This document shows positions 1 through 30,423 of a DNA stretch of 64,000 nt, one piece after another. How positions within the stretch are numbered: the stretch's first letter is position 1; each line of letters starts with the position of its first letter. A program made the translations under genes and the position numbers. This DNA comes from Telopea speciosissima (Eukaryota; Streptophyta; Magnoliopsida; Proteales; Proteaceae), in contig NC_057918.1 of NCBI RefSeq assembly GCF_018873765.1, positions 60,018,871-60,082,870 on the forward strand. Direction: 5' to 3'. The notes under the pieces are model-generated. The model saw only the letters and a program-made list of their open reading frames with translations. It had not been told where the DNA came from and ran no database searches.

Positions 1-235
1 TTCACAAACCGAACCCGAACCATTAAGAGTTCGGTCCGGTGTGGTCCGGGCTGGTTCGGGCCGGTTTCATCGGTTCGGGTTGGGTATTGACACCCCTAAT
101 CACCCCAGAAGAAATTTGCAGCAGGCTTCCTTAGGTGTTGATGTTAAGAAGTAGGCATTTTGAAATGCATAGAGGTATAATTACCCATAGAGAAAATAAC
201 AGACTTTAGAACAACCTCCTTTCCTGCATGAGAGA
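1..235. other. Unclassified repeat-like sequence at window start
   Basis: The first 100 bases are rich in GGTTCGG and GGTCCGG-type words and end in a TTGACACCCCTAA phrase that resembles plant transposon ends. No reading frame or terminal structure can be defined because the window starts inside it. It lies just outside the left edge of the large inverted repeat. Confidence 0.3.
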
Positions 236-690
236 GTATCCTAGGAGCATTGGATCCTTTAATTGGATCCTTGACGACTGCAATGGAAAGACTTGGACTC
301 TCTTGGGAAACTTGATTTTGGTACTTTGGTTTATCATATATGGAAAAAGCACAATATCAAGCTTTAGACAGGTAATTCAAGGACCTAAGCTCAGATCCTG
401 GACTCCATCAGTTTTGATATGCATTCCAAGCTCTCTATCAGACCGTGCATCTCCTTTGTGCGGAATCATCATGTTGCATTAGCATGGGACTAGATCTTTC
501 GTTCTATGCCTAGATCATCTCTTTGATTTGGGATGAGCTTCTTTTTTCTAGTTTAATTTTCTGCTTTCGCTTGTATTTTTATTTTTTCTCCACCCCCCCG
601 CCCCCCCCCCCCAATTCTTTTTCCCCTCATGGGGCTGGATGTTCTTTGCTTTAGTTGAATATATGCCAATTCATTAAAAAATGGGTGTCA
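228..690 (+). pseudogene. L1 LINE ORF2 C-terminal relic (left arm)
   Basis: The frame from 228 to 482 reads as a decayed piece of an L1 ORF2 C-terminal region, past the zinc-binding RT domain, with NWILDDCNGKTW and a degraded WKERN-like stretch. It matches the minus-strand relic at 24,061-24,499 and forms the outer edge of the inverted repeat. The following 3' part carries a poly-C tract (about 592-613) and ends near 680 in an A-rich tail, as expected for a LINE 3' end. Not functional. Confidence 0.6.
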
Positions 691-699
691 AGAGTGAAC

Positions 700-2497
700 C
701 CAAATCCAAAGTAGAACAAGAATTGATTGTTTAAAGCTAACCGAAACCAATTGGTTCAGTTTTCATTATTAATATTCTGTGAATCGAAAAAAATTCGGTT
801 CGAAACTGATTGAAAAAATTGATAAATCGAAACACTACAAATTCACCATTGATTATTAATTCGGGTGATTATCTTGTACTTGTCTTCTTGTTTTGATTTT
901 TGTATTTTAAAATTTATTAGAAGAGATATTAATAGCTTAGTTGACTCCTTGACAAGGAGGGCTCTGTTGGTGATGTGTGTGACAGTACTATGGATCAATT
1001 TCGATCCATAGATTCAGGAGATGTGTTTTACTCCTTCCATGAATTTTTCACGTTAATCTATTCATAAATAAATTCTTCTATACCAGAAAACAAAGATTAA
1101 TCGAAGCGAAGCTTGGATGGACCCTTCCAAAACCATTACTCATAAATTTTTTTGATTTCGAGGTTTCAGATTTCTTGTGCATTTATATGGTATTGAATAT
1201 GTAAATTATAGTGTAAACCTTTAAGGCATCCCAATGATTTTGTAAGTTTTATCTTCCTCAACCCTATTGCAGAACTAAAGAAACCAGATTCAAATCGAAA
1301 TCATATTAAAAACGAATTCAAACTGATTAATCAAAACCGAATTCAAATCGAATAACTGAAATCAATTACAGCCAAACAACCAAATTTCAATTTGAAAAAC
1401 TTAAAGCCAATAATATTTGGTTCTATTTGATTTATACCTTCATCATGAACCAAACCCAAAGGGGGGGGGGGGGAGAATTAGAAGTAAAACACCTCTTCAA
1501 AGGTGAAAACAGAAAGCCAATGAGTAAAAACAATATACAATTCAGTAAGAAAAAATTAATTAAAGAATGCTTAGTCCACGTTTTGGATCACAATCACATG
1601 CTTAGATTGATGAGCACCAGGACAAATTAATTAAAGAATATACAATTTAATAACAAAAAAAGGGGGCTTTTATCCTGTAAAGATCTGAACCCAAGTGGGT
1701 TTTTGTAATAAATAAATAATTAGCTTTTGTCTTTTGGTTTTAACAAAGACGACCTGAAAGTTGAAACCATGTGAAACATTTAAAAATTTCGAAGGAGTGC
1801 TGAAAGATGATGATGAAGATTGATGCCTTTAGATCTTTAGCAATTAGGGTTTTTTATTTTGGTGACTTGAGAATGTCTCTGCTTCCTCTGATCTGCACTG
1901 TCAGATGTCCAAACCTTTCGATTTTAATATCATCTGTCCCCCCTGACCCTTATAAGATAAGATTCATAGCTAATGGGCGAATGTGGTTGGGTATTATCTA
2001 GTCTTATTAATAGGTAGGGATCTTTATATCAAGTGGATTAACATTGAGAATAAACAATATTCAAGAGTGAACAGCCTGAAGGATGCCCGATGTCGAGTAG
2101 AGCCAAGGCTGCTGCCACAGAGTGGAGGAGAGACAGGTCTCGAGAACGAAGTCGATCACATGATGTACAGCCCATCTCTGCTCAGTTTCATCTTTCTTCC
2201 ATTTGGAATATCCCTTAAAGACACAGTAGAATCACTAACACATTAACGAACAAAGATATTGATGTAGAGAAGACCTCTGAAGAATTTCTGGATCGATTAG
2301 AATGGCAAAAGATTATCCGATCAGGTCGGAAGTACTAATTTGCAAGTGCAGAGAGTCGTAATTTTTTATTCAAGTGGAATTATGGGAGTCATAATATCTA
2401 ACGTCAGCTAGGGCTCTATAGATTGACTGTAAGTTTTAATTCAACGTCAAATTCATTAAGGGGTCTACCGAGCCTCTAAAGTTTTGTGCATGATTTA
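700..2497. other. Non-coding inverted-repeat sequence
   Basis: No credible gene. The stretch is AT-rich and repeats the right arm. An 11-G run lies at about 1460-1472. Around 1440 it preserves the uninterrupted target AAGGTATA that in the right arm has been duplicated around an 876-bp insertion. Short frames at 1427, 1807 and 1983 are not supported by any recognisable domain. Confidence 0.6.
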
Positions 2498-2508
2498 GAA
2501 ATTTTAGT

Positions 2509-3031
2509 CTCTCAGTGGCTCTCCAATTAAGTGCTTTGCTTCTTACCAGGGGGTTAGAATTAATTTCATGGCCGAGATGGCAGCATTCATGGTGGGTATT
2601 AAAGAAGCTCACGAGCTTCGCATTTCCAAGCTCTGGATAGAATGTGACTCTGCAGCTACAGTGTCGGCTATCCTTTCCGGTAAGATCCCTTGGAGTTTCA
2701 TGCAAAGCTGGTGGTCTATCTCCCCCTTCCTCGGCTCTATCCAATGGAGAATCACATACTGCTATAGAGAAACTAATGCGGCAACGGATGCCCTTGCAAA
2801 CCATGCCTCAAAAAGAAAAGAATCAAACTCTTGGCAACCCTCTCCATGTTTCATCTCCCACATTGTAAGCTAGGATGCCATGGGCCGGCCCTATTACAGG
2901 TTCACTTAGGGCGTGTGGTGGGGCTTACGCCCTTTTTTTTCCGGTGTCTTTTCTGATATGAAGTCCATCATGTAACATTTTCTTTTTCATAATCAATACA
3001 TTGCTGATCTTTAGCAAAAAAAAAAAAACAA
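2509..3031 (+). mobile_element. 5'-truncated L1 LINE with RNase H tail and TSD
   Basis: A 523-bp L1 fragment flanked by the 11-bp direct repeat GAAATTTTAGT at 2498-2508 and 3032-3042. It ends in a poly-A tract (3015-3027) after the phrase GATCTTTAGC that also ends other L1 copies in this window. The frame 2568-2873 holds the last part of a plant L1 RNase H domain: ELRISKLWIECDSAA, then ITYCYRETNAATDALANHA. The right arm has the equivalent site without this element (about 19,530-19,550), so it inserted after the inverted duplication. Confidence 0.85.
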
Positions 3032-3593
3032 GGAAATTTTAGTTTCTTATTTTATTTTTCTATATTATTAGTTCGTTTCTTGTTTTTTGTTTTGGTTTCC
3101 TTTTCCCTTTATAATCCGACCTCCTTATCTATAGGTCGTTTTGGACAAAATGAAGTATCTTGAAGTTTATGAATGAAATTGCTTTGTTTCCTCTTTTTCA
3201 CAATTGGAATTAGGGTTTTTCTTTACCTCGAGGATTCGATGGTCGTGAGCGCTAGAACAAGATCTAGCTCCATACTTCCAATTGTGTTAGATATATCTCC
3301 ATGTGGCACATGGTCATACCATATACCCAACCCCTTGTTGATTAGGGCCTTTCTCTAGCATTCATGGTTTGAGGAATCAGAATTGGAATTGTAGTTCTCT
3401 TTAATTCGTGCTTCGCAAATCAAATCGGCAATAAAACCTTATTGGTTCTTGAATCGGCCAATTTGGTCCGATTCAATCTCATGCATAGTTCCCATGCATG
3501 TGGTAACATCTCAGCCAATTAAAGCCGGGTGAGAGGGCGGAGGGTGGGGAGTTGGAGCCGGAGAGGGAGAGGGAAAGGTAGAAGAAGAGTTTT

Positions 3594-3595
3594 GC

Positions 3596-3633
<38 letters not shown>
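3594..3633. repeat. (GA)n microsatellite followed by G run
   Basis: An AG dinucleotide run ends in a run of G. It borders the plastid-derived insert; another (AG)n run (about 4159-4179) borders the other side. The matching site of the right arm (about 6505-6535) has only a CT-rich run, so the insert appears to sit inside a microsatellite. Confidence 0.85.
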
Positions 3634-4158
3634 ATATACGTTACACCACGATTTTGAATCAGAAGAGAGATTTCAAGAAATGACGTATCTATTCACTCTA
3701 TCAATAACCGAGCCGGATCTGGTGTATCATAAGGTATTTGCCTTTTCTATTGTTTCCTATGGATTGGACCCAAAAAAAATTCTTGAATGAGGTATTCAAC
3801 TCTAGGGATGAATCGAAAAAGAAATCTTTACAGGTTCTACCACCTATTTTTTATGAAGAGAATGAATCTATTTATTGAATGATCAGAAAAAATCGGCATG
3901 GATAATTTGGAAGGTCCAAAACCAAAAATAGTGGTATTTACTAGCAAGAACATAATGGAGGTAGCTAGTCAATCAATATAGATTAATCTGAAATCTAATT
4001 CAAATCCAATATAGCACCTATGGATACGTAAGAAATATATCAGATCTATTCTTTTTAATGAATAGATCCGATTTCAACTTTGAATATGGCATTCAAAGGG
4101 ATCCAATAGGAACTGATACTCTAAATCATTGAATTATAATGAAATATATGATCAACCA
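3631..4158 (+). pseudogene. ycf2: Nuclear copy of plastid ycf2 fragment (NUPT)
   Basis: Read on the plus strand, this stretch encodes a piece of the plastid ycf2 protein. Recognisable segments are [13 protein letters not shown], then [17 protein letters not shown], then a one-base insertion in the A run near 3771-3778, then [20 protein letters not shown]. After a stop and a short deletion near 3880-3910 come [14 protein letters not shown] and [15 protein letters not shown], ending at KYMINQ. The family protein is over 2000 residues, so this is a small internal piece. It has frameshifts and stops and no plant promoter context, so it is a decayed organelle-to-nucleus transfer. It is absent from the other arm. 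Confidence 0.9.
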
Positions 4159-4159
4159 A

Positions 4160-4502
4160 GAGAGAGAGAGAGAGAGAGATGCAGAGGGTAAAGACCCTGG
4201 AGGAGAGTGATGAAGGAGTGAGGTGAGGGGCACCACTTGCAACAAGATCGCGTGGGTGTCAAAGAACACCTCTGCTGTTTTGAAATGTGGAGGTGTCAGT
4301 GTTGTTGAAGCACGGTCCTTTGGTATTGGCATGAATGTATTAGTAATTTTGTATATCATATATACAAGGAAGAGGACCTATACTTGTAGGTTACGAGCAG
4401 GTACATGTACAGTACAAGAATACGAGGAAGGAAGGTAGTACATGGTGTAGTACTATGGTATATACAGATATACAAGAATATTATATATGATATTCCTTAA
4501 CA
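4160..4502 (-). mobile_element. Copia LTR copy (left arm, minus strand)
   Basis: Read on the minus strand, the LTR starts at 4502 with TGTTAAGGAATATC, directly after a purine-rich tract (4503-4513, AAGGGGGGATG side). It matches 6133 onwards on the plus strand. The inner end of the LTR is not resolved because similarity between the two arms continues past the point (about 4320) where an LTR end would be expected. Confidence 0.6.
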
Positions 4503-4862
4503 TCCCCCCTTAAACTCAATGTGGGAGAGTTGTTCCGAGCTTGAGTTTGGAAACTATAGTATCGAAGTGTCCTAGGAGATGAGCTTTCATGAAGATGTCA
4601 GCAATCTGATCCGAAGAAGTAACTGGTATAAGACAAAGAGTGTCATGAACAAGATATTGACGCACAAAGTTACAATCATTCTCTATATGTTTTTGGTGCG
4701 TTTATGAAAAACATCATTGCGAGTAATCTGGATTACATTTCTACATCATAGTGAAGAATTGTAGCATTGGAATTTGTTACTCCCATGTCTTTGAGTAGCC
4801 AACATAACCATAGAAGTTTAGAGATTGTATCTATAACGATACGATACTCTACTTCTGTCACA
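4503..4862 (-). pseudogene. Copia RNase H fragment (left arm, minus strand)
   Basis: On the minus strand this reads EVEYRIVIDTISKLLWLCWLL, the conserved helix of the Copia RNase H domain, followed by the end of pol, a purine tract and the LTR. It is the inverted counterpart of 5783-6130. The frame is broken and lacks the upstream reverse transcriptase. Similarity stops at about 4862, where a 50-base unrelated stretch leads into the plus-strand Copia fragment. Confidence 0.75.
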
Positions 4863-4912
4863 CCCCGCTCCCGAAAGAGCCACCTGGTATGACTAGGATG
4901 CCAACTATCATT

Positions 4913-6132
4913 ATTCCAAATGGATGTTAATAATGCCTTCCTTAATGGAGATCTTGAAGAGGAAATATACATGCAACCATCACCAGGTTATGATCATACT
5001 CCTCACATGTATGTCACTTACGTCGAGCATTGTATGGTCTCAAATAGCCTCCCCATGCTTGGTTTGTGAAGTTTAGTAGCACTATTCATCAGTTCTTTTT
5101 CATACCAAGCGCATATTCCAATGTACTTTTATTCGTTAATCTACATAAGACACCATTCTTCTTTTTCTCTATGTGGATGATGTGATTAGTACTGACGATG
5201 ATTCTGCTGGTAGCTCAGAACTAAAACAATTCCATCACCTGCAATTTGACATGAAAGATCTTGGATCTCTTAGCCATTTCTTGGGTCTCGAGGCCTCATC
5301 TGGATTTTATGGATACTATCTCTCTCAGGCCAAGTATGTATTTGATATACTATCTTGTGCCAGGTTGATTGAGAACAAGAGTTCACCTACTTTTCTTGAG
5401 AAAAATGTTTGGATGACTCCTATTCATGGCACTCCTCTTTAGGATGAAACTCTCTATCTCCAATTAGTGGGGGTTCTTGTCTATCTCACGGTGACTCGTC
5501 CTGATATGGCTCATGTGGTACATCTTGTTAGTCAATTTATGTCTGCTCCTCGCTTGTTCCACTATGTTGTCGTGCTTTGCATTCTGCGATATGTCAAAGG
5601 CACACTCTTCATGGTCTACATGTTTTGCTCCCTCATCTCTAGAGCTATGTGTCTATTCTTATGTTGATTAGGCTGGAGACCCCATCGATCGACGATCCAC
5701 TACTGGCTACTATTTCTTCTTGGGGGATTCCTTTATCTCTTGGCACAACAAGAAACAAACTGTTGCATCTCACTCCAGCACGAAGGTAGAGTATCGTGCC
5801 ACTATAGATACAATCTCTAAACTTCTTTGGTTATGTTGGCTACTCAAAGACATTGGAGTGACACATTCCAGTGCTACTACTCTTCACTATGGTAATAGAA
5901 AGGCAATCCAGATTGTTCACAATGATGTTTTTCATAAATGTACCAAACATATAAAGAATGATTGTTACTTTGTGCATCAATATCTTATTCGTGATGCTTT
6001 TTGTCATATACCAATTACCTCTTCATTTCATACTGCTGACATCTTCACCTAAGCTCATCTCCTAGGACACTTCAATACTCTAGTTTCCAAACTCAAGTTG
6101 GGAACGCTTTCCACATTTAGTTTGATGGGGAA
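4913..6132 (+). pseudogene. Copia pol relic: reverse transcriptase and RNase H
   Basis: Plus-strand Ty1/Copia pol remains. From 4917 the order is QMDVNNAFLNGDLEEEIYMQ (RT), a degraded RT centre, DDVISTDDDS and FDMKDLGSLSHFLGLE, the RT connection VGVLVYLTVTRPDMAHVVHLV, and RNase H with DSFISWHNKKQTVASHSSTKVEYRA. It ends in TADIFT and a purine tract next to the LTR at 6133. Several stops (for example after HGTPL and after CLFLC) break the frame. The integrase, protease and gag are absent. The part up to 5782 is the spacer between the inverted-repeat arms. Confidence 0.85.
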
Positions 6133-6345
6133 TGTTAATTAAGGAATATCATATATAATATTTTTGTATATCTGTATATACCATATTTGCATTGTACTAC
6201 ACCATGTATTACCTTCCTTCCTTGTATTCTTGTATTGTACATATACTGTACCTCATGAAGTATAAGTATAGGTCCTCTTCCTTGTATATATGATATACAA
6301 AAATACTAAGACATTCATGCCAATACAATTCTAATACTGCCCCTT
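6133..6345 (+). mobile_element. Copia LTR copy (right arm, plus strand)
   Basis: Starts TGTTAATTAAGGAATATC right after the pol end and purine tract. It contains AT-rich TATA-like stretches and matches the minus-strand LTR at 4160-4502. The 3' boundary is uncertain: similarity with the left arm runs on to about 6703, which is more than an LTR and shows the two are arms of a larger inverted repeat. Confidence 0.6.
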
Positions 6346-6703
6346 GCCCAAAGCAGTATGCTTCGACAACACCGACACTTGCACCTTTTAAAAGCAGAAG
6401 TGTGCTTCGACACCCACGCGATCTTGTTGCAAGTGGTGCCTCTCACCTCACTTCGTCATTGCTCTCCTCCAGGTTCTTTTCCCTCTGCATCACTCCCATT
6501 ACTTCTCTCTCCCTCTCTCTCTCTCTCTCCCCCTCTCTAACTCCAGCTCCCCACCCTCTCTCTCACTTGGTTTTAAGTGGTTGAGAAGTTGCCACATGGG
6601 AACTTTGCATGAGATTGAATTGGATCAAACTGGCCGATTCAAGAACCGATAAGATTTTATTGCCAATGTGATTTGCAAAGCACAAATCAAAGAGAACTAT
6701 GAT

Positions 6704-6899
6704 AATTTTTTGCTAAATATCAACAAGGACTTAAATTAAATAAATGAAAAATAATACAAGTGTTTAACGTTCAGGCATACCCAGACAAATACAAGAAAAA
6801 CAAGAAAGGGAGCAAAGCCGCCACATCAAAGAGAACAAAGATAAGAGTCAATCAACTCCAAGACAGAGACACAAGATCAGGAATAATTACCGAGAGAAC
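6704..6899 (-). mobile_element. 3' UTR and poly-A end of the outer L1
   Basis: On the minus strand it ends GATATTTAGC followed by a short A run, the same 3' signature as the other L1 copies here. It is separated from the rest of its element by the nested L1 that ends at about 6906. Confidence 0.65.
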
Positions 6900-8725
6900 C
6901 TGAATCTTTTTTTTTTGCTAAAGATCAACAGGAATATATTAAAAAATAAAAAAGAATACAAGGGGAGAACGTCTAGGCATACTCAGACGAGAACAACAAC
7001 AACTCACTAACACCAAGGCTAGTGACAACCAATGAAGCAGCCTAGAACCCTAAGCAAATCTAAACCTAGGCCTACTCAAAGCATCATCCGACAGTAATGA
7101 CTAGATCGAGGGAGTAAAGGCCACGAACCAGGGAGAGGAGGACTCCCTTTTCGCCGCCAACTTTGCCAGAATGTCCGCCACTGGATTCGCTTCTCCAAAA
7201 CAATGGGTGACTTTCCAAGAAATGGAATCAAGAAAAGGCTGCAGACCCATCCAATGTTGAGTGACGAACCAGGGGATAGATTTGGCATTAAGCACATCCA
7301 CCACAGCCTTGGAGTCACACTCCACCCAAAGATGAGTAATCCCCAAATCTATAGCTCTCAACAGCCCAATGAAGATGGCCCTGAACTCCGCCTCATAGCT
7401 GGTCAAGTTACCAAGAAAAACACTAAAGGCAGACATATGAGCGGCTCGATGATCTCTCAGGACACAACCTGCACCTGCCCTGCCCGGGTTCCCTAACGAA
7501 CACCCATCCACATTGAGTTTCACCCAGCCAGGAGAAGGGCAACACCATCTAATTTCTAACATCACCCTAGTAGGATTAGGGATGATGGGAATATCCAATC
7601 TACGGGCGCAGCATAGATCAATAATAGAAGAGAAGGGGGTGGTAAAGGACCACGAGAGCTCCTTCATAGAAGTAAGGAAACCAGAAAATACCTTATCCAC
7701 CTCCGAAGCGATCCCATCAAACCTTCTGTGATTGCGTTCCAGCCAAATACAGTACATCATTATGATCATACCAACTGTTCAGGCATCCTTCATAGGGACC
7801 ACTCCAGCTTTCCTTTTACCCCAAAGAAAAAGAACACCGATTGAGACCGGACTTGGCCAATGAACATTGAAAATATCCATGAACCTCTGCCATAACCGGA
7901 GAGAGTAAAGGCAATCTAGAAACAAATGTGAGTCCGATTCCACACTAGATGCACACAGCTCACACCAAGACACCAGACACACCCCTCTAGCTGCCACAGC
8001 CGCATTAGTAGGCGTTTTCCCAAGCACCAGCCGCCAAGCAAAACAAGAGTGTCTAGGAAGGAGGGATTTATTCCACACTAAGGCACTCCAATGTGTAATG
8101 GGGGATTTCCCTCTAAGCATCTCCCATGCAGACTTCACAGAGAACCTACCAGAAGGGGTGCAGCCCCAGAAGCAAGAGTCCGAAGTAGGCGAGTTGGGCA
8201 AGGTAATATTCCTGATAGAATCAAAGATGTCACCTAGGAATCGAGACCGAACCTGAGGGAGAGCCCAAGAAGTGCCTTCAATAAAATCAGACACACAAGC
8301 TGCTTTGTCTTTAAAAAGATCCGATTCCAGCTTTGAAGCACTAGCAATTGACTCATGACCCAGCCAAGCATCAGTCCAAAACCGCACAGACTTGCCATTC
8401 CCAATCACCCATCTTTCATTTTGCTCCACCAAATCCCAAACCTTGCAAATACCAGGAAGAATCGAAGAGGGAGGCGAGGGGGACTTTAAAGAACCATCAG
8501 AGTGAACCAACCTGGCTCTCAAAAAATTGCACAACACCGAGTTCTCATGTTTAATAGACCATGCCAGCTTCCAAAGCCAAGCCTTATTAATATCGCGAAG
8601 CCTACGAATGCCCAAACTGCCTTCCACCTTTGGCTTGCAAACCGCATCCCACTTCACTGTCCCTACCTTTCGAGCCTCAATGTCACCAGCCCAAATGAAG
8701 AAAAGACACGAACCGTCAAAGAATG
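6900..8725 (-). mobile_element. Nested 5'-truncated L1: zinc-binding and RNase H domains
   Basis: A second L1 copy on the minus strand, ending in GATCTTTAGC plus poly-A at 6907-6916. From its 5' side it encodes the RT C-terminal region (FIWAGDIEARKVGTVKWD, GIRRLRDINKAWLWKLAWS), the zinc-binding RT domain with C-x-x-C...H...C residues (SWCELCASSVESDSHLFLDC), and RNase H in 7101-7769 (WVKLNVDGCSLGNPGRAGAG, LWVECDSKAVV, then HCFGEANPVADILAK). Catalytic D, E and D of RNase H are visible. A frame break separates the zinc-binding and RNase H parts at about 7775. I could not find a convincing target duplication. Confidence 0.8.
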
Positions 8726-9304
8726 CATCCTTAATCGATTGAAGAAAAGACACGAAATAAGGAGATGAAACGCCTTGCTTAGCCGCTGTCTTAACTAAAA
8801 AACCTGCCACCCAGGTTCCCTTCTCTGAAACAACGAGAAATTTTCCAACTTATTTGATTCAAATAAGAGAACAATGCCAACCAATCCTGCTCCACAAATA
8901 ATGGAATCGATTAAGATTGAATAGCACATGCGACTGCCACCGAATCACATTCAATCCACAATTTGGTAATACCTAGATCTGTCGCTCTCTTTAACCCCTA
9001 GATAACTACTTCAAATTCGGCCACATAGTTGGTCTTAATACCCAGGAGGATACTAAAGGCCGAGATGGAGCAATAAGAAATATCTCGAAGAATACCACCC
9101 GCTCCTGCTCTACCCGGATTCCCAATTGAACAACCATCAACATTAAGTTTGTTCCATCCCAACAAAGGTTTAAACCAAAAAACTTCCCTATTAAAATGGG
9201 CCTTTCTAGGAACCACAGGGTATTTAATCTTCAAGCACACATCAGATCCTGGGCATTGCGAACCAGAGAATTGAAGGAATGAGGTAATTCTCTTAGAAGA
9301 AAAA
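8726..9304 (-). pseudogene. RNase H domain of the outer L1
   Basis: Minus-strand RNase H of the interrupted outer L1: GWNKLNVDGCSIGNPGRAGAGG at about 9100-9160, then LWIECDSVAVA, SWKISRCFREGN, and after a one-base frameshift VAGFLVKTAAKQGVSS. A stop follows EVVI at 8998. Its C-terminal codons are fused in frame with the nested L1 at about 8700-8725, so the minus-strand frame 8810-7779 joins residues from two different elements. Confidence 0.75.
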
Positions 9305-9317
9305 TTAGCACATTAAA

Positions 9318-11721: not shown

Positions 11722-11734
11722 TTAGCACATTAAA

Positions 11735-12888: not shown

Positions 12889-12899
12889 CCTAAGAGGGG

Positions 12900-14343: not shown

Positions 14344-14359
14344 AAGACACTTGAGCTTC

Positions 14360-16147
14360 TGATATAAAATATAGATTGAACTACTGTTTGAGTTTAAAAA
14401 TTATACCGTAAGCGTACGGGTCAATCGTAGCTACGGGTCGAACACGAGAAGATATACGCCACTCTATTTAACTAACTTAAAAGTAATGCAAAGTGAACCA
14501 AATTAATTTAAACACTAAATTAATGATGATTAAACTAACGGATCTTAACTCACAAGCATCTAACAAATTACACATCTACGGGATTAAGTTGGCGTCCTAA
14601 CACATGAACATCTAACCTATCAAACTAATGCAAATTGGGAGTAATTAAAAATAAAATCCTATACTAACGCAAGTTGGAAGTAATAAAAAATGCAGCCACA
14701 CATCCATATCCACATAAACAAAATAACCACATAAGAAAAATAAAAGAAATAGAGGGAGAAGAATGAGATAGATGAGAGGGAGAATGCAATTGAGAGTTTA
14801 GAGAATGCAAACCTAGATGTGCTTGAACCGGATTAATTGAAGAAGCTTGAATGAATAATTGCATGAACTTACCATGGCCTCCTCTTCTAAATCTCCAAGT
14901 CTTGTCATCAACATAGGAGCTTAGACTAAGAAGCTTAAAACTGAAACTATTACAACCATATTGAAGACATTAAAGTATAAACTAATCCTATTACAACCAT
15001 TAACTAATCTTATGAAAGCAAAATTAAGAACTTGAAAGAACTAATCTTATGAAATCAAACTGAGAACTAAAGCCAAAAATAGGAAAAGAAGAGAAAATTT
15101 CACTAAGTGAATGAACCAAAAATTACACTAAAAACTGAATTAAAATTAAACTAGAAACTAACTAAAAACTGAACTAAAAAAACTAACTTGTTACAAGCCA
15201 AAGGGCAAGGGGTATTTATAGGGGGAAGAGAGGAGAAGAGAGAAGAGGAAAGTATAGGAGAAATATTCTCTAAGAAAAGAGAATATTCTCTTCTCCTAAG
15301 AAAAAAAAGAAAAAAATAGAAAGAAGAAGAAGAGAAGATTGTTTACATAGACCTTCTATTTCTAGAAAAGTAAACTTCCAATTCTAACAAGTGCTTCCTT
15401 TTCTTTGTAGATATCTTCTCCAAGCAATAAAATCAAAGCATCTTTGACTTTTCAACTTTCCATAGGTGAGAGAATATCTTTCAAATAAATCTATCCCAAG
15501 TAGAATTCCAGAAGTGCCCTTGAGAAGTTGGAGGAGAGAGAGAGTAAAGGTGATGACTAGGATTCTTCAAGAATAAATAAAATACCATTCTGTCCTTCAG
15601 AAAACGTGGAGCATGGGGTGCTTATATAGGCCTCACCATTGTGTTCCTTGCGAAAAATCACCCAAAATAGACCCAAATTTTGTCCAATTTGGAGTTGGGG
15701 AGCCCAAGATATCTCAAGTTGAAGTTGGACTGTCCAGAGCCCCCCAAATGGAATCTTTAGGGTACAGGAAATATAACTTCTGGTTATTGCGTTAAGGCCC
15801 TTGGAATCCGAACTTCTGCTTCACTTTGTCCCTGGTTGACTGCCAATAATTATAAATAAACCTCTATAGACCATTTTCGCGCGTCGTTACGGAAACGGCC
15901 GTAACTTCTCGTTTCAACTCGGAATCAAGTGCCATTTGAACCATTAAGAAGCTGACTCGATGGGCTACGCATCCATGCCATTAACACCTCTAAATAGCTT
16001 AAAAACATTTTCTTAGCATCATCTCCTCCATTTTTACAAGAATTCACCTAAAACCTGAAAAGCACAAGAAAGCACCGAGTAACTCTGTCCAATGTGGTAA
16101 AATGTATGCTTTATGCCCTAAGATTTCACACATAAATGTGCTCATCA
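14360..16147 (-). mobile_element. LTR-like 1.8-kb insertion in the L1
   Basis: The segment begins TGAT and ends ATCA, the short inverted termini of an LTR, and splits the outer L1 between endonuclease and RT. It has no pol motifs. Flanking pentamers are GCTTC (14,355-14,359) and ACTAC (16,148-16,152), matching at only 3 of 5 positions, so a clean target duplication is not shown. On the minus strand it starts TGATGAGCACATTTATG. A solo LTR of an unidentified element is the best reading; a non-autonomous element is the alternative. The 15,613-15,795 frame has no recognised domain. Confidence 0.5.
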
Positions 16148-16159
16148 ACTACCCATAAT

Positions 16160-16956
16160 AGGAGCCCCCCCAAGAGACCTTGATGACATCATGAAAGCTA
16201 TCCCGCTCCATCAAAAAATTTTACAATCTAAACGGGCAATTCTATGATTTACAATCAAGATCAGACATAATTAAAAGAGGTGAGTGCTCAGAAGCAATTC
16301 CATGTAGAACACTCTGGCTGCATGCTCTAAAATAGTCAATCCAAGTAAAGGTGCAAAAACTTCTATCCAACATCGCTGAAACATGTCCTCTCTTTCGATT
16401 ATTTGACCAAGTAAATTTTGTTCCCTTTGATGGAATTTTCAACAAAGAGCAAGAGTCTACCATGGTCTCAAACTCCATGGCTTCCCCAATGGAGAAGGCA
16501 CCTAGCCCTTTTCTTTTCATGAGAGGCTAACGTTGCATTGAAATCACCCACCACCATCCAAGGCGCCAAAATAATATTTAATCCTGCCAAATCCAACCAA
16601 AGGTCTCTACGACTTGCTCTAAGGTAGCTTGCATGAACAAAGGTCACAAAAATGCTAACACCAACCCAACACATACAAATAGATAACTATTGGTCAGACA
16701 GAGAGATAACAACCGGCCTACTCAATCCCAATTTCCATACCACCCAGATGTTTTGAACTTTCTCCTGTCTATAATTATGGATAACCTCAGCAGAATAGCC
16801 AAATTTACTTAAAAAAAGAGAAGGAAATTTTCTAACCTCCAACTTCGGTTCCGTGATACACACAACATCCAAACTATTCTCTTTCAAAAAAGATGAGAGG
16901 GCTAACCTAGCCACGACCTTCCTGATTCCTCTAATATTCCAGAAGAAGACCTTCAT
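16160..16956 (-). pseudogene. Outer L1 apurinic-type endonuclease domain
   Basis: Minus-strand endonuclease starting at 16,956 with MKVFFWNIRGIRKVVAR (the WNIRG motif). It continues with DVVCITEPKL (catalytic E), then MVVGDFNATL (GDFN motif, 16,520-16,674 region) and, after a frame change, FTWSNNRKRGHVSAMLDR and ASEHSPLLI (the SDH motif, here SEHSP). A frameshift lies near 16,500. The domain nicks target DNA to prime reverse transcription in active L1s. Sequence up to about 16,148 is the endonuclease-RT linker. Confidence 0.85.
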
Positions 16957-17068
16957 TGAATAACTGATGATTTAGAAGCCAAGCACTCAGATCGTTTACG
17001 ATCAGTCTGATCTCCATCATGATTTTTCCTTGTTATACGCTGCTTGTTATGACCCTGCACATCCTAGC

Positions 17069-17443
17069 TGTAGGATTAAGCGCTTGCCAATCCCCCAAAA
17101 AATGTCTTGTGAGGGAAGGTACAACTTTAATTCTTTATTACATACCAGCCAGCGCACATTGCTCCCTCGTCCGAGTAGGGATCTGGGCAGGGCATTTTGG
17201 GTCACTCCCAACAATCCCCCCCCAAATGCACGTCCAATAACAGAGCACCCATGCCACAGGGGAGACTCGAACTCGCGATCACCTGCTCTGATACCAAATG
17301 TAGGATTAAGCGCTTGCCAATCCCCCAAAAGACGCCTTGTGAGGGAAGGTGCAACTTTAATTCCTTATTGTACACCAGCCAGTGCGCATCGCTCCCTCGC
17401 TCGAGCCGAGATCTGGACAAGGCATTTTGGGTCACTCCCAACA
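17069..17443 (-). mobile_element. Complete TRIM retrotransposon (375 bp)
   Basis: Two 145-bp direct LTRs (17,069-17,213 and 17,299-17,443), each TGTTGGGAGTGACCC... to ...CTTAATCCTACA on the minus strand, enclose only 85 bp. Next to the right LTR, the minus strand reads TGGTATCAGAGC (17,285-17,296), the usual primer-binding site complementary to initiator tRNA-Met. Next to the left LTR lies the purine tract GCATTTGGGGGGGGA (17,214-17,228). Flanks are CTAGC and GTAGC (17,064-17,068; 17,444-17,448), a 5-bp duplication with one mismatch. It codes for nothing and would need enzymes in trans. It lies in the outer L1 between ORF1 and ORF2. Confidence 0.93.
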
Positions 17444-17448
17444 GTAGC

Positions 17449-18954
17449 ATCACCATGGTCAGCCTGATCATGAAGCACAACCATAAGGCTTCCCTACGGA
17501 ATGGCCTGCATCTGCCTCTCCGTAACAGGAAATCCACGATGAGAAGAAGGAGAACCCACTTCATCTTCTAGCCTAGGACCCACATTAGAAAAAGATTGGT
17601 CTGTACGACGGGATCAGCGACCCACTCCACTTCCTGTCCATGACCCACAGCAGCATGAGATGCTCCATGTCTACAGTAATTTGAATTTATATTCCTAGAG
17701 GATAGCATCATTGATTGAAGATCCTGGTGAGTAAAGCACAATCTCTCCTCCAAATTTTTCTCCTTTAAATTAGGAATGGAGCCTATTTGCTGCGAAACTG
17801 GTTCCCTTAATGGAAGGGACTCTTCTGGAATAAAATTTGTTAAAATCGAATCTCCTCCTTCCAAATTGGTATCTACCAATTTTTCTACCACAACACCACC
17901 AGCCACAACTTGAGAATCTAACACCATGGCCGGCGACGAATCCAGTTAACCATCTGACCCTTATAGAGAATCACTATCGGGCTTAGATACATCATTCCTT
18001 GAAGTCGCAGGATCATAAGCAACAAGGGGAGAACCTACCTAGTTCTTGGATTCCCTATGCCCACCAAACTGCGCTCCTTAAACCTCAGCACCTCTTTCAC
18101 GTTTCTTTGCTTTGGCTGGAATTCTCTCTTTGCACATATTAATCGAGAGGCCTATGCGACGACAAAACCCATAATTGGTCATGTCATCCTCATAAATCAC
18201 AGTTTTTTTTTAAACCAAAACTTCTCCGCAGATCCCAACTGTTGTCTTTCCACCAGAATCTCCTCTAGCCTTGATCAATGATCTCCATCTTAACAAGGAC
18301 TCTAGCATAATGTCCAACAGACACTTCCCTGGTTCTACGATCTAGGGCTACAAGAGTACCCAAAGCTTTCACCAAAGATAAAAGAATCTCAGGATGCCAA
18401 TATTCATAAGGTAAATCTAGGAACCTCACCCATACCAGCTTATGAACCAGATGATTCCCATTCAGGTTGAAGTTCGGGCACCAATGTTGAAATCTAAGAG
18501 ACTGTCCACTGACCCTGATGGGACTACAATGCCAAATCATGACCATGTCCACTTCCAATGCAAATCGAAAGATGATAAAACCTTTCCCGATAGGAATGAT
18601 TTCAATAGAATACTTCAACTTCCATTGAACCTTGATTGCTTTCCTCAGATCTGTTAGAGACACTTGATGAAGGTTCAACCTCCTAGTCAATGCGAAACAA
18701 AATCTTTGAACCTAAGATTCATAGGTGCTCTGAGGGATTTTAACACAAGTGATCCTTCCTTCATGAATCAGCTTAAGACGAGCCGCCACGTTAGGGATTA
18801 CAGGTTTCCCCACTACTTCTGCAAACATTCTTCCTCTCACCTACTTCTACAACACAACAGGGTGAGCATCCTGGAGTTGCTCGCCTTCATCACCATCATC
18901 TTCCTTCCCAGACTCTTGCTCGACTTCAAAAACCCTTGCCAAATCTCCACTCAT
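17449..18954 (-). pseudogene. Outer L1 ORF1 (gag-like, DUF4283-type)
   Basis: Minus-strand ORF1. I place its start at the ATG at 18,952-18,954 (MSGDLARVFEVEQ), which gives about 240 bases of 5' UTR inside the L1. The core at 18,690-18,265 reads LRKAIKVQWKL, GKGFIIFRFALEVDM, LNGNHLVHKLVWVRFLDLPYEYW and LSLVKALGTLVALD, the pattern of the plant L1 ORF1 RNA-binding domain. A stop after HPVVL and frame breaks near 18,700 and 18,260 disrupt it. The C-terminal part (17,927-17,568) is low-complexity and polar. Confidence 0.75.
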
Positions 18955-19216
18955 CTCTCTCTCCTTTCCTTTCACCCTGTTAGATGCTTCAAATTTCGAA
19001 GTTCTTCATTATATCGAACTCTAAGGCGTGCCAAATTTTACGTTACCATTCTCATCATGTAAATAGTCACAAACCTTCCATCATTCAAACATGCTTACCA
19101 GCCCCTTTAAGAGTCTAAAACAGTGACATTTTTTTCATTAATTAAACATAGTCCCATCTAGCATACATGTATTCTTGATTTTTCCATCCAAGAACTATGA
19201 TTCCTCAAACCATAAA

Positions 19217-19836
19217 TGTTAGAGAAAGGCCCAAATCAACGAGTGGTTGGGTATATGGCATGACCATGTTCCACATGGGGATATATCTCACACAGTAGGA
19301 AGTATAGGGGCTAGATCTCATTCTAGTGCTCACGACCCTCGAATCCTCAAGGAAAAAGAAAAGCTCTAATTCCAATGGGGAAGAAGAGGAAACAAATCAA
19401 TTTCATTCATAAACTTCAAAATACCTTATTTCGTCCAAAACGACCTGTATATAAGGAGGTTGGATTATAAAGGGAAAAGGAAACCTAAACAAAACAAGAA
19501 ACAAACTAATATAGAAAAATAAAATTTTTATATCATGCGCAAAACTTCAAAGGCTCAGTATACCTCTTAAATGTGCGAATTTGACCTCAGATTGAAACTT
19601 ATAGTCCATTTGTAGAGCCCTGGCTGACGTTAGAAATTATGAATCCCGTAATTTCACTTGAGTCAAAAGTTACGTCTCTCAAAAGTTGCGCTAACAAATT
19701 AGTACTTCCGACCTGATCGGATAGACTTTTGCATATCCAATCAATCCAGAAATTCTTCAAAGATCTTGATAAGTGCAAGATAATTGAAAGAGAAAATAAA
19801 GGAGAAGAGAAATAATAGGGAGAGGAAGAGAGGAAA

Positions 19837-19918
<82 letters not shown>

Positions 19919-20166
19919 TTGGGGTTTTACGGACGCCAGACGTCCTAGCTCAATTGGGAAGCCACCAATCCTCTTCTCAAGCTAACTCTTAAGAAATAAT
20001 TTAGGGGACAATAATCTGGTAACCTTTTCATTCATAATTACTATTAAATAGGATTGTATAACCGTTACATAACTTACCACTCTTGACTCCTTCCACATCT
20101 ATATAACTAATCTGCTAACATTGATAGTTCTCATAACTAACACACTCGATACATATAAAATAATAA
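19217..20166 (+). repeat. Direct repeat copy 1, LTR-like ends
   Basis: Shares about 750 bp with 20,970-21,727 in the same orientation, for example TGTTCCACATGGGG and the TTGACCTCAGATTG region. TGTTAG at 19,219 and CTAACA near 20,122 look like LTR ends, but similarity with copy 2 continues about 45 bp past CTAACA. It is therefore a segmental duplication that may include a solo LTR. Confidence 0.65.
19839..19915. repeat. Compound (TA)n(GA)n microsatellite
   Basis: About 40 bp of alternating TA followed by about 36 bp of alternating GA. The second direct copy has only a short GA run at 21,509-21,536, so the TA tract expanded or was gained in copy 1. Confidence 0.95.
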
Positions 20167-20969
20167 TTGAAAGGAAGGCGCAACTCAGAAGCCCAAGTGT
20201 GGGGCTTGATTCACAGGGAAATTGGCAGTCTTTGTCCCTCCATTTGCTGCAGGAGTATCTCAGTCCAAGATTTTCTTCTGGGAAGGTGGCTTAATATTTC
20301 TGTGACATCCCGGGGTCCCTCTTGTTTATTGGAAGTGTTCTGGTCTAGGTCTTTTCCTGGTTGGGTGAAACTAAACGTTGATGGGTGTTCTTTGGGAAAT
20401 CCAAGCATATCAGGTGCAGGGGGTGTCTTCCGAAATTCTGAGGCTCAAGTTATTTTTTCCTTCAGGGAATTTTTGGGAGTGGACACAAATTTTGCTGCGG
20501 AGTTTTATGCTGTTATCTTGGGTCTGGAATTTGCTAAATCTCTTGGCGTTTCTAAGCTTTGGATTGAATGTGATTCGGTGGCAGTTTTTATTTTGGTTTC
20601 TCAGAAGATGGTGCCTTGGTTCATTTGGCAAAGGTGGACTGCCCTCACTCCTTTCTTGGACTCAATTGAGTGGAAATATCCCCATTGTTTCCGTGAAGCT
20701 AACCTAATCGCTGATTTCTTGGTAAAATCGGTTGCGTCTCAGCAAGCTTCTTCAATGATGGTAAAGTTTCCACCCTTAACCCAGGACGAGCTGGTTGTGG
20801 ATGCCCAGTGTAGAGCTAGGTTTAGATTGATTTACCCAAAATGGGTATTGTATTTTTTTGTTTCCCTGCTAATGGCTTTGCCGTAGGTGGGGAATTTATT
20901 TTCTGGTGCTTCTTGTATTTTGGTTATTTTCCCTTCGTTTAATATATTTGATCCTTTAGCAAAAAAAAA
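20167..20969 (+). mobile_element. 5'-truncated L1 with RNase H
   Basis: The plus-strand frame 20,167-20,886 carries a nearly complete plant L1 RNase H domain: GWVKLNVDGCSLGNPSISGAGG, SKLWIECDSVAVF, then HCFREANLIADFLVKSVAS. The catalytic D-E-D residues are preserved. The 3' UTR ends in TTTAGC plus ten A at about 20,960-20,969. It lies exactly between two direct copies of a 0.75-kb sequence. No short target duplication is visible, so it may have arrived with the duplication event. Confidence 0.8.
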
Positions 20970-21727
20970 ATGTTCCACATGGGGATATATCTCACACAGT
21001 AGGAAGTATAGGGGCTAGATCTCATTCTAGTGCTCACGACCCTCAAATCCTCAAGGAAAAGAAAAAGCTCTAATTCCAATGGGGGAAGAAGAGGAAACAA
21101 ATCAATTTCATTCATAAACTTCAAAATACTTTATTTCATCCAAAATGACCTGTATATAAGGAGGTTGGATTATAAAGAGAAAAGGAAACCTAAACAAAAC
21201 AAGAAACTACTAATATAGAAAAATAAATTTCTATATCATGTACAAAACTTTAGAGGCTTGGTAAACCCCTTAAACGTGCGAATTTGACCTCAGATTGAAA
21301 CTTATAGTCTATTTGTAGACCCCTGGTTGACGTTAGAAATTATGACTCTCGTAATTCCACTTGAGTGAAAAGTTATAACTCTCAAAAGTTGTGCTAGCAA
21401 ATTAGTACTTCCGACCTGATTGGATAGACTTTTGCCTATCCAATCCATCCAGAATTCTTGAAAGAGAAAATAAAGGAAAAGAGAAATAATAGGGAGAGTA
21501 AGAGAGGAAGAGAGAGAGCGAGAGAGAGAGAGAGAGATAAATTTGGGGTTTTACCGGACAATAATCTGGCAACCTTTTCATTCGTAATTACTACTAAATA
21601 GGTTTGTATAGCCATTACATAACCTACCACTCTTGACTCCTTCCACATCTAAATAACTAATCTACTAACACTCATAGTTCTCATAATAACTAACTCACGC
21701 TCAATACATATAAAATAATAATTAATA
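20970..21727 (+). repeat. Direct repeat copy 2
   Basis: Second copy of 19,268-20,166, starting abruptly after the L1 poly-A. It lacks about 80 bp present in copy 1 around 19,930-20,010, joining the TTGGGGTTTTAC and GGACAATAATCTGG phrases more directly. Both copies match the left inverted-repeat arm. Confidence 0.75.
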
Positions 21728-22526
21728 CATATAAATAACCACATAATTACGTATATAAATAACCTTTTCCTTTTGCTTTTGGGATACTCCAAAACGGAAG
21801 AAAGATGAAACTGAGCAGAGATGGGCTGCACATGTGATCGACTTTGTTCACGAGACCTGTCTCTCCTCCACTCTGCGGCAGCAGCCTTGGCTCCACTCGA
21901 CATCGGCCAGTAATACCTGATAATACCCAACCACATTCGTCATTAGCTATGAATCTTATCTTATTAGGGTCAGGGGGGACAGATGATATTAAAATCGAAA
22001 GGTTGATGAGGCGCATGCATGCATGAGACTTCATTATAATAGACAAGTCTGCAACTATAATCCATGTTTGATCAACTATTTATTAATGGACATTCAACAG
22101 TGCAGATCAGAGGAAGCGACATTATTGTACAGGGACTCGATCACAGCTCTCAGATCCCCAAAAAAGAAAACCCTAATTTCTAAAGATCTAAAAGCATCAA
22201 TCTTCATCATCATCCTTCAGCACTCCTTTGAAATTTTTAAACGTTTCACATGGTTTCAACTTTCAGGTCGTCTTTGTTAAAACCAAAATTCAAAAGCTAA
22301 TTATTTATTTAATACAAAAACCCACTTGCTGAATATAATTAATTTGTCTTGGTTCTCATCAATCTAAGCATTTGATTGTGATCCAAAACGCCGGATAAGC
22401 ATTCTTTAATTAATTTTTTCTTACTGAATTGTATATTGTTTTTTCTCATTGCCTCCCTGTTTTCACCTTGAAGAGGTGTTTTACTTCCAATTCCCCCGTT
22501 TGGGTTCGGTTCATGATGAAGGTATA
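21728..22526. other. Non-coding right-arm sequence
   Basis: Reverse-complement counterpart of about 1430-2230. No credible gene. The last eight bases (22,519-22,526, AAGGTATA) are one copy of a target-site duplication. Confidence 0.6.
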
Positions 22527-23402
22527 ATGCAGCCTCGTTGGAAGATATGGATCGAGAGAGTCAAACACACAAACACAAGAAGAAATACATCACAACGGGA
22601 TTAACATGACTCTTCAAGGATGTAACGAACTTTCCAAGATTACGGGAGAGAACACTTCAAGGTACTAATATTTTATTAATTCATTCTTCACCATTGAATG
22701 AGCATAGAGCTCTTACATATTTAAAGAGAAAATAAACATAATTCTAATATCTAAGACTACTAAATCCTATGACTAAGATTAATTGCAATCTATCCTACGG
22801 CTACGAATAAATCAGAAATTACATCATTAAATAAAAGAAAATAAATATCAAAATAAATACTAATTGAGTCCTTGGCAAATAGAAATGCTAAATTAACAAA
22901 AACTAAATTGAGAAACCGTCTCTCTCTCTTCTTTCTTCAAATCCGTCCAAGGCTGTCCATGTGGCATGAGTGTTTAAACAATGCTTCCTTGTGAAATTCA
23001 TGGTCTTGTTTATTCCATTCCTAAAATATAGATCTTGTATTTCAACCCTAAAATTAAGGAGAGGTAAAAATCGTTTCCCTAGTTGGGGTTCCAACTTCTT
23101 TATCCCTCGAGTTATCCTCATTTTAGAATTAACTTTCCAAAATAATAGAAATCTCCTTTAAAATAGGAAACTGTAATCCCTTTAACAAAGGGTCAGTCTC
23201 CTCTAAAATAGGAAATTGTAAATCCTTTTAGCAATCGGTCAATCTCTTCTAAAATAGGAAACATTAATCCTTTAGCCATCGGTTGGAAATCTTCTTGAAG
23301 TAAAATCCATACGGCAGAATCGGCCTTGATGATGTGGCTTAGTATGAACCCATTTGAAGCTTGGTCTTGGTTTGGTTTGGCATGCACGTATGGGCCTACA
23401 TC
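22527..23402. mobile_element. 876-bp insertion with 8-bp target duplication
   Basis: Perfect 8-bp direct repeats AAGGTATA flank it (22,519-22,526 and 23,403-23,410). The left arm (about 1430-1460) shows the same sequence with one AAGGTATA and no insert. Ends are ATGCAGCC and, inverted, GATGTAGGCC, only weakly similar. The 8-bp duplication suggests a hAT-like DNA transposon, but terminal repeats are poor and there is no transposase. It contains three tandem units of about 45 bp (23,155-23,288). Confidence 0.75.
23155..23288. repeat. Three tandem units of about 45 bp
   Basis: Each unit starts TCTCCTYTAAAATAGGAAA and ends near a CGGTCA or GGGTCAG word. Units are diverged by several substitutions. 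They lie inside the 876-bp insertion and are absent from the other arm. Confidence 0.8.
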
Positions 23403-23999
23403 AAGGTATAAATCAAATAGAACCAAATATTATTGGCTTTCAGTTTTTCAAATTGAAATTTGATTGTCTGGTTGTAATTGATTTCAGTTATTCGGTTTGA
23501 ATTCGGTTTTGATTAATTAGTTTGAATTTGTTTTTAATATGATTTAGATTTGAATCTAGTTTCATAAGTTCTGCAATAGTGTTGAGGAAGATAAAATTTA
23601 CAAAATCATTGGGATACCTTAAAGGTTTACACTATAATTGACATATTCAATTCCATATATATACACACAAAATTTGTATGTTTGTAATGGTTTTGGATGG
23701 GTCCAACCAAGCTTCACTTTGATTGATCTTTTTTGTTTCCCCTGTTAGTAGAAGACTTTATTTATGAATAGATCAACGTGAGAAACTCATGGCAGGAACA
23801 AAACACATCTCCTGAATCCATGGATCGAAATTGATCCAAACTATCATACACGTCACTATCAGAGCCCTCCTTGTCAAAGAGTCAGCTAAATTGTTAATCT
23901 CTCTTGTAATAGTTTATTTTGAAACTACAAGAATGGAAACAAGAAGACAAGTACAGAATGGATCTAGTAATCAATGGTAAATTTGTAGAATTAACTTTC

Positions 24000-24557
24000 C
24001 AAAATACAAGAAAAAACAGAAAACTAGAAAAAGAAGCTCATCGCAAATCAAAGAGATGATCTAGGCATAGAATGAAGATCTATAGATAAGTTTCATGCTA
24101 ACGGAACATGATGATTCCACAAAGGAGATGCACGGTCTGATAGAGAGATTGGACTGCATATCAAAAGTGATGGACTCCAAGATCTGAGCTTGGGTTCTCG
24201 AATTGCCTGTCCAAAGCTTGATATTGCGCTCTTTCCATATATGATAAACTGAAGCGCCAAAAGCGTGCAAGTTTCCCAAGAGAGTCAATGCAAGTCTTTC
24301 CACTGCAGTCGTCAAGGATCCAATTCCACGCACTATCTAAGGATCCAATGCTCCTAAGATAAGACCAACACTGATTTCTAACATGAGCCCAAATCCAACT
24401 AGGGAGGGGGCATTCAAAAAAAGACGTGAATGAGGTTCTGGGACATGCCTTTAGATAACCAGGGCACGAGTGGGAAAGGATTGGATTAGAGCACGCCAAG
24501 CAATAAAACTATACCTAGGGATATGATCTTTAAATTAAACTATAGGGTGCCATGGGA
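24000..24557 (-). pseudogene. L1 ORF2 C-terminal relic (right arm)
   Basis: Minus strand. The frame 24,499-24,161 shows the end of the zinc-binding RT domain (PRTSFTSFFECPLPSWIWAHV, NWILDDCSGKT), and the frame 24,333-24,061 continues with FGASVYHIWKERNIKLW, a common plant L1 motif. One frameshift separates them at about 24,250. The inner part matches the left arm at 228-560; the similarity ends near 24,360, so the inverted repeat stops inside this L1. Confidence 0.7.
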
Positions 24558-24658
24558 CCTTGGAAGCTCGAGTGCTGATAAGGTTCCAAACAAAGACTCA
24601 GGAGAACAACCAATTTGAGGATTACAAGGTCTCAGGCGGGATTGTGATCGTCTACGGC

Positions 24659-24784: not shown

Positions 24785-24799
24785 TCTACGGCAGCACGC

Positions 24800-25230: not shown

Positions 25231-25238
25231 TATATAAA
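25231..25238 (+). promoter_or_regulatory. TATA box of the PME gene
   Basis: TATATAAA lies 73 bases before the start codon. A transcription start about 30 bases on (about 25,262) would give a 5' leader of roughly 50 bases, a normal arrangement for a plant gene. Confidence 0.7.
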
Positions 25239-30390: not shown

Positions 30391-30423
30391 ACTTAAACGA
30401 TACTTCCACATGACGAGAATACT

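Follow-up and report, generated by a model that had tools for sequence, protein, structure and literature searches.

A divergent gene pair and its mirrored flanks

The 64-kb stretch of DNA analyzed here (the window; positions to the left of its first base are negative) lies in a cluster of four pectin methylesterase (PME) genes, A(+), B(+), C(−) and D(+). Gene D (25312-27047, + strand) is intact, with two exons and PMEI and Pectinesterase domains. Gene C (−17660 to −8871, − strand) has become a pseudogene: five stops interrupt its reading frame, and its intron holds a MULE. The two genes are opposite in orientation and 95% identical over about 1.86 kb. In a genome-wide search with PME exon 2, which scored all 125 candidates and listed 98 matches, the best non-self match of D was C, at 93%; exon 2 of D is 83% identical to that of B and 80% to that of A, and the other full-length matches listed reach at most 63%. 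Ks is 0.076 between D and C, on 27 synonymous changes, and 0.39 between D and A or B. Polarized codon changes number 4 synonymous and 18 non-synonymous in C, against 12 and 4 in D (Fisher p 0.0008); C is dead, and D is evolving under constraint.

Between these genes, a sequence-only reading of the window had noted a large decayed inverted repeat. The repeat is real. Self-BLASTN of the window placed left-arm blocks from 237-4852 against the right arm at 24361-19198 and 6699-5786, in nine colinear inverted pairs (E values 7.6e-34 to 0): 237-579/24361-24001, 835-1443/23988-23400, 1432-1872/22527-22148, 1912-2006/22004-21911, 2084-2214/21909-21781, 2270-2506/19767-19520, 3049-3379/19525-19198, 3392-3577/6699-6521 and 4159-4852/6518-5786. 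Two extra, alternative pairs arise from a direct duplication within the right arm. The self-comparison thus gives an inverted colinear chain and not an unbroken anti-diagonal, since insertions interrupt the blocks. Upon realignment, the nine pairs are 89.5% identical over 2,939 columns, with a K2P distance of 0.114 (range 0.055-0.174) that differs between blocks (p 0.004). CpG sites differ between the arms in 36% of cases, compared with 9% elsewhere. Over the full left arm, 799 of 22,493 24-mers recur in reverse orientation in the right arm; the count was 0 for one unrelated control sequence of the same length. A MAFFT alignment of the arms was used only where both sides align plainly, because the direct duplication and a plastid insertion mislead it in the middle (about left-arm 2946-4140).

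The left arm within the window (237..4855, − strand) is the inverted copy. The right arm comprises an inner part (5786..6703, +), with the end of a Copia pol, flanking DNA and, as judged by eye, the Copia 3′ LTR (about 6134-6315); a middle part (19191..24361, +), defined by self-BLASTN and realignment; and an outer part (24347..27048, +), with an L1 remnant, the promoter region and gene D. The span of 24 kb originally assigned to the repeat holds for its inner portion, but 236 and 24361 are not its outer ends, as homology goes on in both directions. In the surrounding genome, the left arm resumes past a 3,462-bp insertion (−3225 to 236, its in-window end being 1..236) and reaches some 17.66 kb to the left of base 1, and right-arm homology extends to about 27048. 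Positions 24347-27048 mirror −17658 to −3226 in inverted order. A short run of seven T marks the left end of the insertion, and the target-site duplication TATCCTAGGAG is identical over 11 bp (by eye, 14 of 15). Past the window, identity between the arms is 95.6% in one PME exon, 95.0% in the other and 86-90% in three outer non-coding blocks, with a divergence of 0.134 in the latter versus 0.114 within the window. The 24-kb repeat is therefore the inward-lying portion of a larger, old duplication in which a PME gene was copied in mirror image; the outer end and the gene pair escaped the first reading because both lay outside the window. Neighboring copies in opposite orientation, each other's closest relatives, and mirrored non-coding flanks, the marks of an inverted tandem gene duplication, are all present.

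Against this reading, the non-coding divergence, in the window and in the outer blocks alike, exceeds the Ks of the gene pair. CpG decay accounts for part of this excess; unequal rates may also contribute, as may gene conversion in the vicinity of the genes.

Later insertions and the center of the repeat

Much of the apparent decay of the arms is due to later insertions: nested L1 elements, an LTR-like insert, a ycf2 fragment and a further L1. The largest, a 12.5-kb L1 insertion (6704..19190, − strand), splits the right arm and has duplicated 11 bp of its target site (AGAACTATGAT, at 6693 and 19191); it is nested, as two domain sets are present. In the left arm, an L1-type fragment (2509..3043, +) with an RVT_3 RNase H-like domain and an A-rich tail is flanked by the 11-bp duplication GAAATTTTAGT at 2498 and 3033. 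An LTR-like insertion of about 870 bp, recognized by eye (22528..23402), is flanked by direct repeats of 9 bp (AAGGTATAA, at 22519 and 23403), and its site is empty in the left arm. These three arm-specific insertions are thus bounded by duplications of 11, 9 and 11 bp; among 397 random position pairs, a shared word of at least 9 occurred in 5 and one of 11 in none. A plastid ycf2 fragment (3641..4159, +; Pfam Ycf2, E 8.7e-54) sits within a left-arm AG repeat, and the right-arm blocks abut at the corresponding site (6521/6518). The right arm also holds a direct repeat (+ strand; copy 1 at 19266..20168, copy 2 at 20970-21723; K2P about 0.07), with an L1 fragment (20169-20969) between the copies. 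Among the papers listed by a search on long LINE target-site duplications, nothing usable emerged for this direct repeat of 0.75-0.9 kb.

At the center, the arms are now less than 1 kb apart. Positions 4856..4911 (+) are the tip, 56 bp long, of an unrelated dispersed element that begins TGTCACACC and is found at six other genomic loci. The spacer that follows (4912..5785, +) is Copia pol sequence, with reverse transcriptase (RVT_2, 46 bits) and then, by eye, the start of the RNase H region, and runs on into the right arm only. The 184-kb stretch around the locus contains no N, and mis-assembly or a fold-back read is an unlikely source of the repeat because the arms are 10% apart and each has its own insertions with target-site duplications.

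Origin of the repeat and alternative explanations

The arrangement is very probably an old head-to-head inverted tandem duplication within the PME cluster. The duplicated segment would have started at the D stop codon and taken in, toward the center, the promoter of D and an old repeat mosaic (an L1 remnant, unnamed dispersed repeats and a Copia 3′ end), and a reversed copy placed upstream would carry C. D is probably the parent and C the derived copy, because A, B and D share their orientation and some sequence past the stop codon that C lacks; what is common with D amounts to about 22 bp in A and to 67-88 bp at about 75% identity in B. The same signal could also result from sequence lost or inserted at C at a later time. 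We infer that the event was one of copying or template switching in the repair of a break, and the suggestion in the sequence-only reading that such structures record rearrangement at a break is plausible in this sense. Symmetry at the center would have been lost later, probably through insertion of an element at 4856 followed by deletion, and the original inner breakpoint went with it. The right arm was also considered as the donor, given that the L1 remnant past 24361 and the Copia sequence past 5786 occur there only; this was dropped because 237 is an insertion point and 4856 is the tip of another element.

Several unrelated dispersed repeats follow each other in the two arms with order and orientation preserved, as expected from one inverted duplication and not from chance insertions, and the homology first seen to pass the Copia LTR continues outside the window through the PME gene. 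The alternative that the same families of elements inserted independently, in opposite orientation, has in its favor that the sub-blocks tested (237-579, 3051-3379 and most of 835-1911) come from families also represented elsewhere in the genome. It would, however, require several unrelated families to have landed in identical order, with flanks shared by both arms beyond the LTR and a member of the gene pair at each outer end, and is extremely improbable. When three parts of the mosaic were searched genome-wide, with scores for 40 of 171, 24 of 24 and 40 of 110 candidates, the highest-scoring match among those scored was in each case the other arm, and none of the 103 other places listed (37, 23 and 43) lay within 30 kb of one for another part. 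Moreover, a 172-bp piece of one family is present in both arms and missing from three other loci, which also argues against separate insertions. The right-arm version of this piece has gaps, and two loci with the same family (C1:30456289 and C6:67294283) have no bearing on the argument. For one sub-piece, other family copies nearly match the left arm in closeness to the right arm (L022, 88.9%). Hardly more credible is a large DNA transposon or fold-back element with the arms as terminal inverted repeats: long inverted arms do flank a spacer, and a MULE with long terminal inverted repeats lies nearby, but 237 and 24361 are interior positions, homology passes both sides of the insertion to an outer limit at the stop codon of the gene, and the arm ends do not coincide with element ends inside an enclosing target-site duplication. 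The most serious competitor, though still improbable, is fusion of broken sister chromatids into a palindrome that was later trimmed at its center and outer ends. The 56-bp fragment of an unrelated element and the asymmetric spacer would fit such trimming, whereas homology stops at the stop codons of D and C, and a fusion palindrome is expected to continue outward. Between the 3′ flank of D (26900-45000) and −45000 to −17500, the gene end is the sole match, and other inverted matches between the two sides over 184 kb are scattered, 68-84% identical and non-colinear.

The sequence-only reading had also raised the formation of hairpin RNAs. Transcripts across the center could fold and feed small-RNA silencing, as at Mu killer or with the maize Tpd1 hairpin; cofolded as RNA, the innermost blocks give −966 kcal/mol and 623 inter-strand pairs (one unrelated partner: −415 kcal/mol and 104 pairs), and the excess of CpG differences is what methylated DNA would be expected to show. 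CpG decay is nevertheless ordinary in transposon-rich DNA. The gene copies and the Copia LTR point away from the center, and because the gene copies are divergent their promoters would fire outward. Together with the 89.5% identity, the splitting of the right arm by the L1 and the scarcity of perfect 24-mers (143 of 4,603 in the left arm of the window; 655 of the 799 over the full left arm fall in the gene copy), this speaks against a hairpin-RNA locus, which we consider very unlikely. Rfam gave no match at gathering score in the whole window. Equally doubtful is that antisense transcripts of C, for instance from its intronic MULE, or read-through of the center yield small RNAs that tune D; if they did, the inverted duplication would be a young trans-silencing locus. 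Most likely, the inverted duplication has no function as a repeat, and its gradual disguise reflects neutral accumulation of transposons.

Comparison with known inverted duplications

Mu killer is an inverted duplication that gives rise to hairpin siRNAs. The maize Tpd1 hairpin is another (PMC11390486). The PME repeat resembles both in being an inverted duplication partly derived from transposons but differs from them in that its arms are about 90% identical and its promoters divergent; the long, near-perfect arm complementarity of hairpin-siRNA loci is not found. The duplication may also be related to proximal duplications made during repair, in which a nearby segment is copied into a break (PMC2671141, PMC4423477). 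Synthesis-dependent strand annealing accounts for human proximal duplications of up to 619 bp, one of them in opposite orientation (PMC2671141), and rice break fillers measure 1-123 bp (PMC4423477). The PME duplication, at several kilobases and including a gene, exceeds this size, and the link is accordingly a conjecture, although the process may be akin.

A search of the literature that lacked most subscription journals returned only related mechanisms for such a structure. The kind of event is ordinary, yet it is cleanly readable here: about 3 kb of non-coding DNA in the window can still be aligned between the arms, so that the mirror-image flanks can be followed. General open questions are unaffected, but the locus illustrates that a decayed plant inverted repeat can be what remains of an ordinary gene duplication, that later insertions with target-site duplications can make much of its broken look, and that its extent may be visible only via the flanks. 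It also provides two copies whose divergence is known (K2P about 0.11 in non-coding DNA, Ks about 0.08 in the genes), one of them dead and the other constrained. Inverted tandem duplicates, in divergent, head-to-head arrangement, occur in plant gene clusters. With these the PME pair has in common opposite neighboring paralogues, shared flanks, one pseudogene and a transposon-filled spacer, and nothing essential differs.

Inverted blocks and their extension to the left

Self-comparison of the window places the inverted blocks where the sequence-only reading had put them. Left-arm positions 237–4852 pair with 24361–19198 and 6699–5786 of the right arm; the blocks are colinear and match on the minus strand. 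Separate realignment of the nine pairs gave 2,939 columns in all, 89.5% identical, at a K2P distance of 0.114 (0.055 to 0.174 per block). Differences between the arms are four times as frequent at CpG sites (56/155) as elsewhere (241/2,672), as expected for methylated DNA. Divergence is heterogeneous among the blocks (p 0.004), with 8.6% in the outer five and 12.5% in the inner four (p 0.0008); this heterogeneity is not fully explained.

The inverted structure exceeds its reported extent. In the genome searched (823 Mb, window on contig C3), the left arm restarts past a 3,462-bp insertion (−3225 to 236; negative coordinates lie left of window base 1), which carries a short run of T and is marked by a target-site duplication of 11 bp. 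The outer block pairs are −3449 to −3226 with 24571–24347, −3526 to −3448 with 24915–24828, −3965 to −3712 with 25201–24951 and, together containing a pectin methylesterase (PME) gene, −9920 to −8871 with 26235–25193 and −17658 to −16839 with 27048–26229. Another 4.9 kb on the left (−8870 to −3969) has no right-arm partner and shows an 8-bp candidate duplication. In the right arm, 24572–24827 has no partner in the left arm; it holds a compact self-complementary stretch of 117 bp (24666–24782, 82%), MITE-like by eye, upstream of PME gene D. Copies of an L1 remnant elsewhere in the genome (L011, L012 and L013) cross 24361 in the right arm and end at 237–238 in the left. This pattern, at first taken to suggest a breakpoint at 237/24361, is accounted for by the insertion ending at 236. 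The L1 label of this remnant is taken from other family copies and a zf-RVT match of 23.2 bits, under the Pfam cut-off of 27.5.

Three left-arm parts within the window were searched, and all proved to be fragments of old, dispersed families; this accounts for the L1, LTR-like and unknown sequence of the first reading. Among the candidates scored (40 of 171, 24 of 24 and 40 of 110), the other arm had the top bit score in each search, and no two places from different searches lay within 30 kb of each other among the 37, 23 and 43 others listed. In sub-piece 1752–1911, the family copy L022 comes almost as close to the right arm (88.9% identity) as the left arm does. At C8:23151929, C4:33571634 and C4:58611300, neighbouring pieces of one family abut without 172 bases (1580–1751) that are present in both arms, with gaps in the right-arm version; C1:30456289 and C6:67294283 are uninformative on this piece.

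Two further repeats lie nearby. A near-perfect self-complementary stretch of 711 bp (95.6%) occupies 92654–93364 in the right flank, outside the window (L040, L041). A direct repeat of ~1.23 kb (50876–52098 and 58590–59819, 87% identical), which may be the LTR pair of a single element, encloses a reading frame that is Copia-like by eye (57391–57981).

Insertions, a loss and the centre of the repeat

Arm-specific inserts with flanking duplications indicate that later insertions, each into one arm, caused the larger breaks in the repeat. The right-arm gap at 6704–19190 is filled by minus-strand L1 elements (two reverse transcriptase, one zf-RVT, two RVT_3, a DUF4283 and an endonuclease domain), with the 11-bp duplication AGAACTATGAT on both sides. 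An L1-type fragment in the left arm (2509–3043) also has an 11-bp duplication. An 870-bp insert in the right arm (22528–23402), LTR-like by eye, has a 9-bp direct repeat; the left arm is empty at this site, which coincides with position 1432, where a dispersed family ends. As a null, 397 pairs of positions were drawn at random: in five the longest word in common was 9 bp or more, and in none was it 11. A plastid ycf2 fragment (3641–4159; Pfam Ycf2, E 8.7e-54) lies between AG repeats in the left arm.

At least one gap between the arms is a loss rather than an insertion: within left-arm 580–834, the part examined (to ~680) survives in other L1-remnant copies (L011, L012, L014) and is absent from the right arm. 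The 19-bp word TTTTGGAAAGTTAATTCTA at the right-arm deletion joint (23986–24004) recurs in the LTR-like insert at a distance of ~860 bp (23124–23142), possibly as filler DNA copied in repair. Elsewhere in the right arm, an L1 fragment (20169–20969; RNase H, A-rich end) sits exactly between direct repeats of ~0.75–0.9 kb (19266–20168 and 20970–21723; K2P ~0.07). No short duplication was found at the ends of the fragment, and the repeats may be a target-site duplication of exceptional length, or else a tandem duplication whose joint holds the L1.

At the centre, 4856–4911 holds the opening 56 bp of a dispersed element; its six other copies begin to match at 4855 or 4856. Most of these, when intercompared, lose similarity at the same end; the pair L026/L027 is similar beyond it, probably within a larger shared stretch. 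Copia pol (RVT_2) lies between the 56-bp fragment and the right arm and is continuous with the latter. On the simplest account, insertion of the element into the left arm was followed by a deletion that took its remainder and the original centre, and the inner breakpoint of the duplication has thus been lost.

PME genes C and D

Gene D (25312–27047, right arm) is intact, with two exons and PMEI and Pectinesterase domains. Its reversed copy on the left, C, is a pseudogene which, relative to D, has five in-frame stop codons and two small insertions, of 2 bp in exon 1 and of 1 bp close to the end of exon 2. The intron of C holds a 6.9-kb MULE (~−16838 to −9923; L033, right end in L032) with a 9-bp target-site duplication and inverted ends of ~600 bp that are 97.5% identical. 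It is a young element with a captured piece of a host gene: its MuDR, MULE and SWIM domain matches share one strand, opposite a sugar-transporter fragment.

C and D belong to a PME gene cluster: farther left, two more PME genes in plus orientation, A (−78666 to −76822) and B (−50705 to −48363), have no stops in exon 2. Genome-wide (98 matches, all 125 candidates scored), C ranks first among the non-self matches of D exon 2 (93%), ahead of B (83%) and A (80%), with the next best at 63%. Ks is 0.076 for C versus D and 0.37–0.44 for the other five pairs. Polarised with A and B, codon changes number 4 synonymous and 18 non-synonymous in C, and 12 and 4 in D (p 0.0008), indicating that C decays while D is kept. 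Downstream of its stop codon, D has ~22 bp in common with A and, with B, 67 bp (88 in B, ~75% identity), but nothing with C; this is short evidence for D as the parent copy.

Hairpin potential and origin of the duplication

The suggestion that the repeat feeds small-RNA silencing through hairpin RNA finds no support, nor does any role for the inverted repeat itself. Both gene copies and the Copia LTR face outward, and their promoters would therefore not yield hairpins. By computation, joint transcription would let the arms pair, but perfect 24-mers are few: within the window, 143 of the 4,603 in the left arm, and over the whole length of that arm 799 of 22,493, of which 655 fall in the gene. 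The least unlikely regulatory reading, and a very improbable one, is that pseudogene C acts on D through antisense or small RNA.

The reading of the arms as one inverted duplication was right: a gene and its upstream segment were duplicated in inverted orientation, and the homology ends at the stop codon. A palindrome formed by sister-chromatid fusion is a possible origin for such arms, but it predicts homology beyond the stop codon, and none is found. We infer that part of the D locus was copied, inverted, into a nearby break. Comparable copying into breaks is documented for short segments, in one case in the opposite orientation (PMC2671141; PMC4423477). The proximal examples described in these two sources are at most 619 bp, and the segment duplicated here lies outside that size range.
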